Shown: piece after piece, positions 49,106-56,556 of the stretch | How positions within the stretch are numbered: the stretch's first letter is position 1 | How the letters are laid out: the number at the start of each line of letters is the position of its first letter | From: an uncultured Sphingomonadaceae bacterium | Lineage (GTDB): Bacteria > Pseudomonadota > Alphaproteobacteria > Sphingomonadales > Sphingomonadaceae | DNA length: 64,000 nt | Direction: 5' to 3' | Assembly (NCBI GenBank): GCA_938050045.1 | Contig: CALLJS010000006.1 | Coordinates: 1 to 64,000, forward strand | Translations under genes and position numbers: made by a program | The notes under the pieces: generated by a model | The model's input: the letters and a program-made list of their open reading frames with translations, nothing else | Database searches by the model: none | What the model was told of the DNA's origin: nothing

Positions 49106-49831
49106 TTATTTAACCACGCCTTCAAAGGATAATTCACCCGATTCACCAACTTCTATTGGTTTATCAAACACCCAACGCACATGCGTTACATCTGCAACGC
49201 CCGCAGCGCGCTTCACAACAGTATCGCTCTCAGGCGTATCGCTCTGGGCAGTATCGCTTTCGGGCGTATCGCTCTCGGCAGTATCGCTTTCGGGTGTATC
49301 GCTCTCGGCAGCATTGCTCTCGGGTGTATCGCTCTGGGCAGTATCGCTCTGGGCAGCATTGCTTGTTATGGCCGCGTTAGATGGAAGCTTGGTTTCAACC
49401 GTGAGATATTGTAATTCACCCCAATTTTTGCCGCCATCGATAGAAATTTCCGCCCATTCTTCTGCGACTTGCGAAAATTGAACGGCATTAGGCATAGGAT
49501 TCACGGCCTTAAATCCTTCGATAATCTGCCCTGTTTCATTTTTATAAGATAATATGAATTTAAGCCTATCCCCAGGGATAACCACAACATCATTTGGTGT
49601 TTTCAACACTTCTTGTTCTACACCATCTGCATTTTTTTCGGTGCGGATTACATATACTTTACTCGTGAGTGAAACTTGGCTTTGCATCGCAACAGTCGCC
49701 GATGCTGAACTGCTCGAGATGATAAAAGAAGCCAGAATTGCAACGCTGGATAATAGCACAACGCACAATAAGCTGGTGCGCAACATTAGTGTATCGTTAT
49801 TATTTTCAAACTTAACGGATAAACCAAACAT
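49106..49831 (-). CDS. Exported DUF11-like protein with pentapeptide repeat tract
   Basis: The protein has 241 residues. After a short start comes a signal/anchor helix (about 16-40, SLLCVVLLSSVAILASFII) and then a beta-rich domain with a surface-protein look (PGDRLKFILSYKNETGQIIEGF, partial; VNPMPNAVQFSQVAEEWAEISIDGGKNWG, partial), similar to DUF11-type repeat domains. Between this and the last strand (HVRWVFDKPIEVGESGELSFEG, partial) lie ten units of the form SD/N-T/A-x-x such as SDTPE, SDTAQ and SDTAE. The start at 49831 has AAGGG eight bases ahead. Confidence 0.78.
   Translation of the reverse strand: MFGLSVKFENNNDTLMLRTSLLCVVLLSSVAILASFIISSSSASATVAMQSQVSLTSKVYVIRTEKNADGVEQEVLKTPNDVVVIPGDRLKFILSYKNETGQIIEGFKAVNPMPNAVQFSQVAEEWAEISIDGGKNWGELQYLTVETKLPSNAAITSNAAQSDTAQSDTPESNAAESDTPESDTAESDTPESDTAQSDTPESDTVVKRAAGVADVTHVRWVFDKPIEVGESGELSFEGVVK
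49212..49357. repeat. About ten 15-base units encoding SDTPE-like pentapeptides
   Basis: Units of GTATCGCTCTCGGCA type (plus-strand reading) repeat about ten times in frame in the 49106-49831 gene. Third-position and whole-codon differences show several rounds of duplication. The in-frame 15-base period lets copy number vary without frameshift. Confidence 0.88.
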
Positions 49832-53026: not shown

Positions 53027-53449
53027 TTAACCCCGAAACTTAGCCGCCAAATCATACATAGCAATCGCCGCTTTTGCCGCCTCGCCGCCTTTGTCTTTTT
53101 GCGCAGCATCGGCACGCGCCAAGGCTTGCGCTTCATTTTCAACGGTGATGATACCATTGCCAATTGCAACGCCATCTAGCGTTAAGGCCATAATCGCCCG
53201 CGCGCTCTCATTCGATACGATTTCAAAATGATAGGTTTCGCCGCGAATGACCACCCCAATCGCTACAAAACCATCATATTTCTCGCTCTCCATCGCAAGG
53301 TTAATCGCGCCAGGTACTTCCAAAGCCCCAGGAACGGTGATGACTTCATGGCTGTGGCCCGCAGCTTCTAAGGCTGCCTTTGCTCCATATATCAGCATAT
53401 CATTTAGCCTGTCGTAAAAACGCGCTTCAACGATCAAAAAATGTGCCAT
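53027..53449 (-). CDS. ribH: 6,7-dimethyl-8-ribityllumazine synthase
   Basis: The protein has 140 residues from the ATG at 53449, with GGAGA ahead. It condenses the RibB product with ARP in the penultimate step of riboflavin synthesis and assembles into 5-mers or capsids. [41 protein letters not shown] (with the catalytic His) and [14 protein letters not shown] are conserved. It follows the RibBA-type gene by 46 bases on the same strand. Confidence 0.95.
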
Positions 53450-53495
53450 AATTGTCTCCAATATCTTTGTTTTGGGCTATATTATTGAGGCCATA

Positions 53496-54821
53496 TTACG
53501 CAGTATCATGCAATTCAACAGCACGCTGCCCCACTATGCGCAAGCCATAAGCATCAAGGCCAACCAATTCATGGCTGCTATTGCTGATTAATTCCATATC
53601 CTGCACACCAAGGTCTGCCAAAATCTGCGCCCCTACGCCATAATCGCGTAATTGATCGGGCATTGAGGGTATTGGTTTTTCTTCATTTTCTTGCTTCTTC
53701 ATATCTTTTTGGCCCAATAAACGCTGCACTTGCGTTGACAAAAAACGCCTGCCCGTTTGCGGTATCATGACAATCAGTCCATGCCCTTCTGCGCCAATGA
53801 TACGCATCGATTCCGCCAGCATCCCCGATGGGCGTTCGCATTGGCCAAAAATATCATCAAATACAGACAAAGCATGCATGCGCACCAAAGTCGGATTATC
53901 AGGATCAATATGCCCTTTTTGCAGCACCAATTGCTCGGTTTGCGTGGCATGGTTGAAATAGGTTATCGCATTCCATTCGCCGCCCCAACGGCTGGTAAAA
54001 CGCGCTTCGATACGTTTTTCCGCCAGATGGTCATTGCGCAAGCGATAGGCAATTAAATCGCGGATTGTGCCGATTTTCATATTATGCCTATTGGCAAATT
54101 CTATCAAATCATTGAGCCGCGCCATCTCACCATCATCTTTCATAATCTCGCAAATCACACCCGATGGATTGAGGCCTGCAAGACGCGATACATCGACGGC
54201 AGCCTCTGTATGCCCCGCCCGCACCAACACGCCGCCATCTTTGGCTTGCAGAGGAAAAATATGCCCAGGCGTTACAATATCGGTTGCGCCTTTATTACTA
54301 TCCACAGCAACCGCGATAGTGCGCGCCCGATCGGCTGCGCTGATGCCCGTGGTCACGCCTTCGCGCGCTTCAATAGAAATGGTAAAGGCGGTGCTATATT
54401 GCGCGCGATTATTCTGGCTCATCATATTAAGATCAAGCTCGTCCACGCGCTCTTTGGTCATCGCGAGACAGATAAGGCCGCGTCCATATTTGGCCATGAA
54501 ATTTACCGCATCAGGGGTCGCCATTTGCGCGGGGATAATCAAATCGCCTTCATTTTCACGATCTTCATCATCGACCAAAATATACATGCGGCCATTGCGC
54601 GCTTCATTGATAATATCTTCGGCGCTCGCCATCACGCTGCCGCCATTACTCGCTAAATATTTTTCCAATCGATTTAATGTATCGGCCGTTGGATTCCAAT
54701 CATCTTGCCCTAAATGTCGCAAGCTGTTGGCATGCAACCCCACCGCGCGCGCTAGGCCCGCTTTAGATGTTTTTCCGCTGTCGACTAATTCGACGATTTG
54801 ATCTATCAATGATGTGCTCAT
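53496..54821 (-). CDS. ribB: DHBP synthase with N-terminal XRE-like HTH and degenerate GTP cyclohydrolase II domain
   Basis: The protein has 441 residues in three parts. Residues 1-58 look like an XRE-type HTH (SKAGLARAVGLHANSLRHLG, then WNPTADTLNRLEKYLA). Residues about 64-265 are DHBP synthase, with DDEDRENEGD at 84-93 and RAGHTEAAVDVSRLAG, which makes the four-carbon unit of riboflavin from ribulose 5-phosphate. The rest aligns with GTP cyclohydrolase II, but the zinc cysteines (the C-x10-CxC of active RibA) are absent: the segment reads VRMHALSVFDDIFGQCERP. So only the RibB step is likely, and a separate RibA is expected elsewhere. Its promoter carries a palindrome that the HTH might bind. 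Confidence 0.92.
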   Translation of the reverse strand: MSTSLIDQIVELVDSGKTSKAGLARAVGLHANSLRHLGQDDWNPTADTLNRLEKYLASNGGSVMASAEDIINEARNGRMYILVDDEDRENEGDLIIPAQMATPDAVNFMAKYGRGLICLAMTKERVDELDLNMMSQNNRAQYSTAFTISIEAREGVTTGISAADRARTIAVAVDSNKGATDIVTPGHIFPLQAKDGGVLVRAGHTEAAVDVSRLAGLNPSGVICEIMKDDGEMARLNDLIEFANRHNMKIGTIRDLIAYRLRNDHLAEKRIEARFTSRWGGEWNAITYFNHATQTEQLVLQKGHIDPDNPTLVRMHALSVFDDIFGQCERPSGMLAESMRIIGAEGHGLIVMIPQTGRRFLSTQVQRLLGQKDMKKQENEEKPIPSMPDQLRDYGVGAQILADLGVQDMELISNSSHELVGLDAYGLRIVGQRAVELHDTA

Positions 54822-54827
54822 ATTTCT

Positions 54828-54855
54828 TAAATATCACATTACAGTGTGATGTCAA
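54828..54855 (-). promoter_or_regulatory. ribB promoter with palindrome in the spacer
   Basis: On the minus strand a perfect -35 box TTGACA (54855-54850) and a -10-like TATTTA (54833-54828) are 16 bases apart. The spacer is occupied by the palindrome ATCACATTACAGTGTGAT (54833-54850, plus-strand reading). The start point predicted 6-7 bases past the -10 box falls at or next to the ATG at 54821, so the mRNA would be leaderless or nearly so. Confidence 0.7.
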
Positions 54856-54863
54856 TTAGCAAA

Positions 54864-54933
54864 ATCACATTATGCGCCGCATAAATTTGATTTATCGGGC
54901 CTAATATTCATATTTTTAATCATCACAATGTGA
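54864..54933. promoter_or_regulatory. Additional ATCACA half-sites between ribB and the thiolase-like gene
   Basis: ATCACATTA recurs at 54864-54872, and TCACA-A-TGTGA forms a compact inverted repeat at 54923-54933. With the palindrome in the ribB promoter this makes several copies of one half-site in a 175-base divergent region; a shared regulator of both genes is possible. Confidence 0.5.
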
Positions 54934-54996
54934 ATTTAACTTGACGATTAAATTATCAAACCCCACATTGCTGCTCTGATATGATAAGGATGATAT

Positions 54997-56556
54997 ATGA
55001 GCCAAATTCCCGATAACACCCCAATTATCGTTGGCGTCGGTCAAGCTAGCGAACGGCGCGATGGCGCAAATTATACTGCGCTATCCCCGATGGATTTGGC
55101 GGGCAATGCCCTTGCTGCAGCCATTAAAGATAGCGGCGAAGATGTTGCTACGCACATCGATACTATCGCTGCGATCCGCCAATTTGAGATTAGCTCTGAA
55201 ATAGCAGTGGCGCCTTTTGGTAAATCGAATAATCCGCCGCGCTCCATTGGCCATCGGGTGGGAGCAAACCCCGAGCGCGCGATATTGGAAATCACGGGTG
55301 GCCAAGGCCCGCAAAAATTGGTTGGCGAACTCGCTCAAGAGATAGCCGATGGTAAAAGCGACATGGCGGCGATAGCGGGGTCTGAAGCTATCTCAACCAT
55401 GCTGATGCATCTTAAAAGCGGCGATAAACCGAACGCGCCAAAAGCTGATTGGAGCGAAGAAATTAGCGGCGATTTGGAAGATCGCGGCTATGGCTTAGAA
55501 GGACAATTTGATCGCGCCTTGCTCAAAAATGGATTTACGGGCCCTGTTACGGGCTATGCCTTATTCGATAATGCACGGCGTCATAAATTGGGGGTTCATG
55601 TTGCTGATTATCAAGCGCAAATCGGAGCATTATTTGCGCCCTTTACCGATGTCGCAGCGGCCAACCCGCATGCAGCCAGCCCTAAATCACTAACCAGCGA
55701 CACTATAGCGACAATGAGCGACAAAAACCGCATGATATCGCACCCTTATTTGCGCCATATGGTATCGCGCGATCAAGTCAACCAAGGGGCCGCGATCATC
55801 CTCTGCTCTGCCCGCAAAGCGCGTGAGCTTGACATAGCAGAAAATAAATGGGTTTATATCCACGCCGTCACCTGCGCCAAAGAGGCTTCTATCATGGGGC
55901 GCAGCGATCTCTCGGCTTGCGCTAGCGCGGTGAATGTTGTGCAAGAAGCCTTTAATATCGCGGGCCAAGGCGTTGATGATGATTCGCCGCTCACCATGCG
56001 CGATATGTGCTATCTCGACCTTTATAGCTGTTTTAGCTTTCCCGTTTTCACCATTATGGAGGCGTTTAACTTGCGCCATGATGATAAGCGCGGTTTGACG
56101 CTAACGGGCGGCCTGCCATATTTTGGCGGTGCAGGCAATAATTACAGCAGCCATGCCATTGTCGAAGCCGTCATCCGCGCGCGCCGTGACCCCAAAGCCT
56201 TTGCATGGGTTGGAGCAAATGGCGGCGCAATGAGCAAATATGCTTGCGGAATTTACTCAACGCGGCCCACACGATGGGATATTGGCCGTTATAATTTGAT
56301 GGCCGATACGCAAAGATCGTTCGAAGTTGCAGAGGAATATGATGGCGAGGCCATTGTTGAGAGCTATACAATAGCCCCGAACAAACGCGGTGCGGTGGCG
56401 AGCATAATTGCACGTACGGCCGATGATATGCGCGTGGCGGCGATGATTAATCAAGATGCATCGGATGTTATGCAGCATTTATCTGATGACCAAGCCATTG
56501 GCCGCAGCGTGAGCATTAGCCATCTTGGAAAAGGCGTGCATAATTTTATATTTTAA
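54997..56556 (+). CDS. Thiolase-like protein (SCP2-thiolase-like, TLP1 type) lacking catalytic residues
   Basis: The protein has 519 residues. The first 400 or so follow the thiolase fold (PIIVGVGQASERRDG, DMAAIAGSEAISTML, and GGLPYFGGAGNNYSSHAIVEA in part). Where active thiolases have the nucleophilic Cys (FCGSGLEA in the fadA-like gene of this window) it reads GGQGPQKL, and the GHPLGATG histidine loop reads FGGAGNNYS. The last 90 residues form an extra domain, as in the mycobacterial thiolase-like protein 1, which binds rather than cleaves acyl-CoA. It is often annotated as acetyl-CoA acetyltransferase; that activity is doubtful here. AAGGA precedes the start. Confidence 0.8.
   Translation: MSQIPDNTPIIVGVGQASERRDGANYTALSPMDLAGNALAAAIKDSGEDVATHIDTIAAIRQFEISSEIAVAPFGKSNNPPRSIGHRVGANPERAILEITGGQGPQKLVGELAQEIADGKSDMAAIAGSEAISTMLMHLKSGDKPNAPKADWSEEISGDLEDRGYGLEGQFDRALLKNGFTGPVTGYALFDNARRHKLGVHVADYQAQIGALFAPFTDVAAANPHAASPKSLTSDTIATMSDKNRMISHPYLRHMVSRDQVNQGAAIILCSARKARELDIAENKWVYIHAVTCAKEASIMGRSDLSACASAVNVVQEAFNIAGQGVDDDSPLTMRDMCYLDLYSCFSFPVFTIMEAFNLRHDDKRGLTLTGGLPYFGGAGNNYSSHAIVEAVIRARRDPKAFAWVGANGGAMSKYACGIYSTRPTRWDIGRYNLMADTQRSFEVAEEYDGEAIVESYTIAPNKRGAVASIIARTADDMRVAAMINQDASDVMQHLSDDQAIGRSVSISHLGKGVHNFIF

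Follow-up and report, generated by a model that had tools for sequence, protein, structure and literature searches.

Can an enzyme of riboflavin synthesis act as the repressor of its own gene? The question is raised by a ribB-type gene in a stretch of 64,000 nucleotides from an uncultured Sphingomonadaceae bacterium (the window; GenBank assembly GCA_938050045.1, contig CALLJS010000006.1, positions 1 to 64,000). A sequence-only reading of this DNA had described the product as a RibB-type protein beginning with a helix–turn–helix (HTH) domain, had pointed out a palindrome within the promoter and the lack of a visible FMN riboswitch, and had proposed that the enzyme represses its own gene and thereby replaces the riboswitch. 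We analyzed the locus (Table 1), its homologs in the family and the relatives of its HTH.

Table 1. Features of the ribBX locus in the window
Feature	Position	Strand	Basis or remark
HTH-RibBX fusion gene	53496..54821	minus	ORF, 441 aa; single match in own genome
N-terminal Cro/C1-like HTH, residues 1-57	54651..54821	minus	alignment, profile, fold comparison, dN/dS
DHBP synthase (RibB) domain, residues 68-259	54045..54620	minus	DHBP_synthase profile; motifs RENEGD and GHTEA preserved
Degenerate GTP cyclohydrolase II (X) domain, residues 270-432	53526..54014	minus	GTP_cyclohydro2 profile; cysteines absent by eye
ribH (lumazine synthase)	53027..53461	minus	34 bp past the ribBX stop if the TTG start is taken
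Main operator (predicted), ATCACATTACAGTGTGAT	54833..54850	palindrome	16-bp core TCACA-N6-TGTGA at 54834-54849
TTGACA, -35-like hexamer	54850..54855	minus	inferred promoter, -10 weak
Second half-site (minus-strand TGTGA)	54865..54869	minus	31 bp from the corresponding half of the main operator, on its upstream side
Further element, TCACAATGTGA	54923..54933		11-bp palindrome with one central base

The description of the protein held. Both enzyme profiles match the window protein with high significance (DHBP_synthase, E 2.1e-84; GTP_cyclohydro2, PF00925, E 1.1e-33), and the residues R88 E89 N90 E91 G92 D93 and G203 H204 T205 E206 A207, which have a catalytic role, are invariant among 42 sequences. 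Aligned by eye, the X domain lacks a cysteine at each of the three positions where the genome's separate GTP cyclohydrolase II (GCHII) has CLTGDVLGSLKCDC, the zinc cysteines, and it reads HALSVFDDIFGQCERPSG where that other protein reads HSECLTGDVLGSLKCDCG. Because the separate and true GCHII (C6:112455-112940, 201.1 bits) keeps the cysteine motif at the three places where the last domain of the window protein has none, the core is, by its sequence, of the RibBX type, with a DHBP synthase joined to a degenerate GTP cyclohydrolase II domain. With the RibBX proteins of A. baumannii (PDB 6mnz) and Shewanella it shares the two-domain core, the intact DHBPS motifs, the loss of the GCHII cysteines and a separate GCHII in the genome, and 6mnz is its best sequence match among solved structures and the third by fold. 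Unlike the window protein, which has an HTH and a dedicated predicted operator, 6mnz has a match that starts at profile position 64, leaving out the HTH. The nearest three loci in a search of the GTDB collection, 95-96% identical, come from uncultured Sphingorhabdus. Downstream, ribH is probably co-transcribed with ribBX.

Taken singly, the HTH is weak against Pfam: a scan of the full-length protein found no HTH match at E ≤ 10, and when residues 1-66 were scanned by themselves, HTH_26 was matched at E 0.024 with 15.3 bits, below the curated cut-off of 22. As a family, the domain is conserved. Among 41 aligned sequences drawn from the 115 HTH-bearing loci described below, HTH_3 matches 34 at E ≤ 1 (best 1.7e-5), and Pfam thereby places the family, weakly, with the Cro/C1-type HTHs; 15 positions are invariant (M1 A26 G28 L29 H30 N32 L34 R35 W42 N43 P44 T45 T48 L52 L56), mostly within A-GLHxNxLR and WNPT. 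Given a dN/dS of ~0.06-0.09 in five close pairs, the HTH is a conserved coding domain, less constrained than the RibB domain, for which the four pairs computed gave ~0.02-0.03. The predicted fold of the HTH has a pLDDT of 83.1 and three helices called, the third helix of the HTH not being among them. Its Foldseek matches, headed by the MuB N-terminal domain and including CylR2, suggest a resemblance to the P22 c2, HipB and SinR domains, with no match at E ≤ 0.001.

The promoter features noted by the sequence-only reading were confirmed, with one weak point. The TTGACA hexamer (54855-54850, minus strand) is perfect and shares one base with the edge of the palindrome, which is likewise present (54833-54850); 12 bp separate its 16-bp core from the ATG. 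Since a strict sigma-70 scan of positions 54780-55010 found no promoter, we judge the -10 box to be poor and TTGACA to be the only convincing element. The TCACAATGTGA element stands farther upstream, between ribBX and a divergent thiolase-like gene (54997-56556).

If the HTH acts through the palindrome, site and domain should always occur together and be absent together, a clean prediction of the system. We searched 149 genomes of the family, 146 of which had a match, and retained 150 ribBX loci among the matches listed, leaving out of the counts the weaker ribBX matches, including those of two genomes (G010 and G090). The HTH was scored as present in loci with a match from residue 1-8, which gave 115 loci, each from a different genome; in the other 35 the match starts at residue 21 or later, and these comprise 34 loci without the HTH and one copy with an internal stop. 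For each locus, we took the best TCACA-N6-TGTGA between -250 and +60. A palindrome with at most one mismatch was found at 110 of the 115 HTH loci and at none of the 35 others. The HTH loci had zero mismatches in 84 cases, one in 26 and two in five, the last five carrying their 2-mismatch sites near the start, while the best palindromes of the other loci had three to five, such that the two ranges do not overlap. The palindrome is thus kept upstream of HTH-bearing orthologs, the opposite of the outcome that the sequence-only reading had named as fatal to its proposal.

The number of sites is far above what chance would give. When the DNA upstream of the 115 HTH loci was shuffled with its dinucleotides preserved, a site with at most one mismatch appeared in a mean of 1.38 loci and a maximum of 4 in 50 rounds, in comparison with the 110 observed. 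Other gap lengths between 0 and 12 were matched at 1-36 of the 115 loci; the 36 belong to gap 1 and probably arise inside the same TCACA-N6-TGTGA site. Among 15 extra HTH loci from genomes outside the 149, 14 were perfect in the ten arm bases and one had two mismatches, extending the tie between a conserved operator in the gene's own promoter region and the DNA-binding domain. Of 80 loci from the GTDB collection, whose genomes partly overlap the 149, 31 have the HTH; the site was found in 30/30 HTH loci having upstream DNA and in 0/48 HTH-less loci, a count that omits two loci having no upstream DNA (L053 and L054). Four Rhodobacterales-type loci with a match from residues 31-42 (L064, L076, L095 and L109) were checked for the HTH, and it was absent. 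As an observation on the setting of the gene, a RibE-like C-terminal motif occurs within 600 bp upstream of 32/115 HTH loci and 16/35 HTH-less loci, counts that come from a simple pattern and are lower bounds; ribE just upstream thus appears as a common setting that says nothing on the HTH.

Mere co-inheritance of site and domain may contribute to such a pattern, and we addressed it in two ways. In a quick tree of 80 RibBX cores (36 of the 115 with the HTH, 34 of the 35 in the other group and 10 outgroup rows), the HTH state changed six times, at least three of these on well-supported branches, and the operator, scored at up to two mismatches, also changed six times. Three independent pairs on well-supported branches agree for HTH and operator, too few for significance (sign test, p 0.25). 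The contrasts within single genomes weigh more on the question of shared ancestry: in three genomes (G133, G085 and G127), the copy with the HTH has the site (1, 0 and 0 mismatches, respectively), and the one or two HTH-less copies are without it (3-4 mismatches).

A different kind of evidence came from relatives of the HTH that are not fused to an enzyme. One genome (G017), whose own ribBX copies have neither HTH nor site, encodes a stand-alone homolog of the RibBX HTH (E 3e-22) in a provirus-like region (L255/L349/L355). Directly before its ATG stand two ribBX-type palindromes 31 bp apart, with one mismatch each, and a second pair 2.8 kb away has the same 31-bp spacing with 0 and 1 mismatch; the provirus stretch compared recurs in an IMG/VR viral contig (L355). 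Across the stand-alone homologs, 7/8 have a 16-bp palindrome with at least 4 of 5 arm bases complementary at -30 to -26 relative to the ATG, an interval from which most RibBX sites start as well. For comparison, 81 further 5-bp windows, taken from -115 to -31, were each occupied in at most 5/8 homologs and 70 of them in 0-2. Singly these palindromes are unremarkable, and their shared position alone is unusual. These counts leave out the weakest profile matches and two viral-contig homologs with unclear start codons (L358 and L359); a scan of the two found no TCACA-type site, and no palindrome was found for the stand-alone homolog L268. The half-sites differ among the homologs (TCACA, GCATA, CCACA or GCACA, TCGCA or TCCCA), varying, as judged by eye, together with the residues that open the presumed recognition helix. 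In four of the five stand-alone homologs tested, the divergent neighbor has a Peptidase_S24 (cI-like) domain. On account of this neighbor and the shared palindrome position, we assign the HTH to a Cro-like family. The window protein thus resembles stand-alone Cro-like proteins in its HTH family and in the position of its site before the ATG, and in one case also in the operator sequence and the 31-bp tandem spacing; it differs in that those proteins are small, whereas its HTH is fused to an enzyme of ~375 aa.

The palindrome is of a generic kind that is read by many dimeric regulators, and it could be read in trans by another protein, with the HTH having some other role (DNA tethering, oligomerization or none). 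The distribution of sites in the genomes bears on this alternative. In the window's own genome, the 18-mer pattern at 0-1 mismatch matches the ribBX site only; at up to three mismatches, 87 strand-matches were found against 33 for a reversed control pattern, an excess that favors a reader in trans to some degree and makes weaker targets elsewhere in this genome possible. Searched for across the 149 genomes, the exact pattern WTCACAYYNNRRTGTGAW was matched at 58 places, spread over 56 genomes, in comparison with ~7 expected by chance (a rough estimate from base counts that ignores composition), and the reversed pattern gave 0 in every genome among the matches listed. Of the 58 places, 53 are at ribBX; among the remaining five, three are within ORFs and the rest are the G017 provirus pair and one site in another genome (G103). 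The site appears nearly dedicated to ribBX, and we discarded the idea of a wider regulon. Strong sites are thus rare elsewhere, the loci without the site are precisely those without the HTH, even between copies in one genome, and the same site accompanies a stand-alone HTH homolog, all of which makes a regulator in trans very improbable. The G103 site (L254, around 2429) consists of a perfect operator, ATCACATTTCAATGTGAA, and an additional half-site. It is located downstream of ribBX-ribH and of an aldo/keto reductase-like gene and upstream of another minus-strand ORF, in a genome whose ribBX site has two mismatches, and it is a possible second target.

The self-repression through a fused HTH that the sequence-only reading had proposed is therefore strongly supported by the comparative data: the co-occurrence across 150 loci, the paralogs, the absence of another 0-1-mismatch site in the window's genome and the stand-alone relative with the same site. 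We consider it highly probable that the protein is both a DHBP synthase and an autorepressor, its HTH binding TCACA-N6-TGTGA in the ribBX promoter region and limiting the transcription of ribBX and ribH. DHBPS forms dimers, and a RibBX dimer would pair two N-terminal Cro-like HTHs through the enzyme's own dimerization; as the model of the full protein is of middling quality (pLDDT 74.8, pTM 0.54), we argue no dimer geometry from it. The HTH pair would bind the 16-bp palindrome and often also the second half-site, since at 48/110 loci a further TGTGA precedes the corresponding operator half by 31 or 32 bp. The bound protein would then block RNA polymerase, with less ribBX and ribH transcript as the consequence. 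In 73/110 loci, the 3' end of the palindrome is 11-14 bp before the ATG, which leaves little room for leader RNA and suggests a leaderless or nearly leaderless transcript.

The same binding could instead activate the gene, for instance at the -35 element. Small HTH regulators are capable of activation, as with wBmxR1 and wBmxR2 of Wolbachia, which raised a ribA reporter according to a passage in PMC3518464, and the second half-site is upstream of the -35. However, the main site fills the stretch from the -35 to the start codon, a position typical of a repressor and one at which the stand-alone Cro-like relatives have their sites too. We thus regard activation as improbable and retain repression as the preferred mode of action.

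The final part of the original proposal, that the protein replaces an FMN riboswitch, fared less well. As had been noted, no FMN riboswitch (RF00050) reaches the Rfam gathering score in the window. The search was equally empty in all 149 family genomes, including those with an HTH-less ribBX, although its filters can lose weak matches; it did find RF00050 in 7/14 control genomes. Nor was one found at 20 loci without the HTH, of which 18 come from bacteria outside the Sphingomonas group, and the riboswitch was dropped as a candidate regulator. As relatives without the HTH also have no riboswitch, its absence does not appear to be tied to the HTH, and a specific replacement is not supported. A functional counterpart of the riboswitch could still arise if a ligand acting on the X or RibB domain (flavin, GTP or ribulose 5-phosphate) gated the repressor, an addition to autorepression whose probability is to be judged apart from those of the alternatives above. 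The X domain is kept although it is without the GCHII cysteines, and in Shewanella it regulates RibB activity by an unknown mechanism, as a passage of a citing paper (PMC10012899) reports of Brutinel et al. (2013). Against gating, riboswitch absence does not follow the HTH, and the X domain is present in RibBX with and without the HTH and so is not there for the sake of the HTH. On balance, we see ligand gating as a real possibility that falls somewhat short of being probable. Two genomes have HTH-bearing RibBX in short open frames of 350 and 364 aa (G007 C1:2392223-2393224 and G114 C1:8300-9352); their X domains may be cut short and offer a natural test of the need for this domain.

As to its origin, the HTH with its operator looks like a Cro-type module of a phage repressor family that became fused to RibBX within the sphingomonads. 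The stand-alone forms are more widely spread, from which we infer that the module was taken from the phage side and joined to RibBX. At the class level, 12/385 genomes match the HTH; strong matches (E < 1e-30) are confined to four genomes of the window's own family, and the other eight are weaker (best 1e-9), two of them being stand-alone homologs (L267 and L268). Among phage records, the G017 provirus homolog as query gave one match, with 47% identity over 55 residues, and a search for plasmid relatives of the HTH found none at E ≤ 1e-3. The same HTH family is fused N-terminally to CoaBC (PF02441 and PF04127) in 2/29 genomes of another family of the order (L375 in G557 and L377 in G598), with weak palindromes upstream of the two genes, which hints at a recurrent route of capture for this HTH family. 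A broader scenario would have the cofactor-biosynthesis enzymes of the order repeatedly capturing a phage Cro-type domain, RibBX with a phage-type tandem operator and CoaBC independently, and the RibBX switch gated by a flavin-pathway ligand via the RibB or X domain to unite enzyme, sensor and repressor; in this full form, we hold it to be unlikely.

Metabolic enzymes that repress genes of their own pathway are known as trigger enzymes, with PutA, BirA and NadR as examples. The window protein would resemble them in its predicted repression of its pathway's genes and differs in the enzymes and DNA-binding domains involved and in having one promoter as its predicted strong target. RbkR is an archaeal riboflavin kinase with an HTH that regulates riboflavin genes. 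It, too, is a riboflavin-pathway enzyme bearing a DNA-binding domain, with the difference that it acts at another enzyme step and in another domain of life, the likeness being one of architecture. In P. furiosus, RbkR is predicted to regulate the rib operon, as stated in PMC10746257. Enzymes repressing their own genes are thus already known, while for an HTH-RibB fusion we found no description among the titles and abstract openings listed from open-access papers. As 115 of the 149 family genomes carry the HTH-RibBX fusion among the matches listed and no FMN riboswitch was found in the 149, control of vitamin B2 synthesis in this family may as a rule be exerted by a protein. The module further suggests that a metabolic enzyme can take over a phage repressor domain along with its operator as one ready-made feedback unit. 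Elsewhere in the window, an ORF at 49106-49831 (minus strand) encodes a protein with a tandem repeat of the DTAESDTPESD type.
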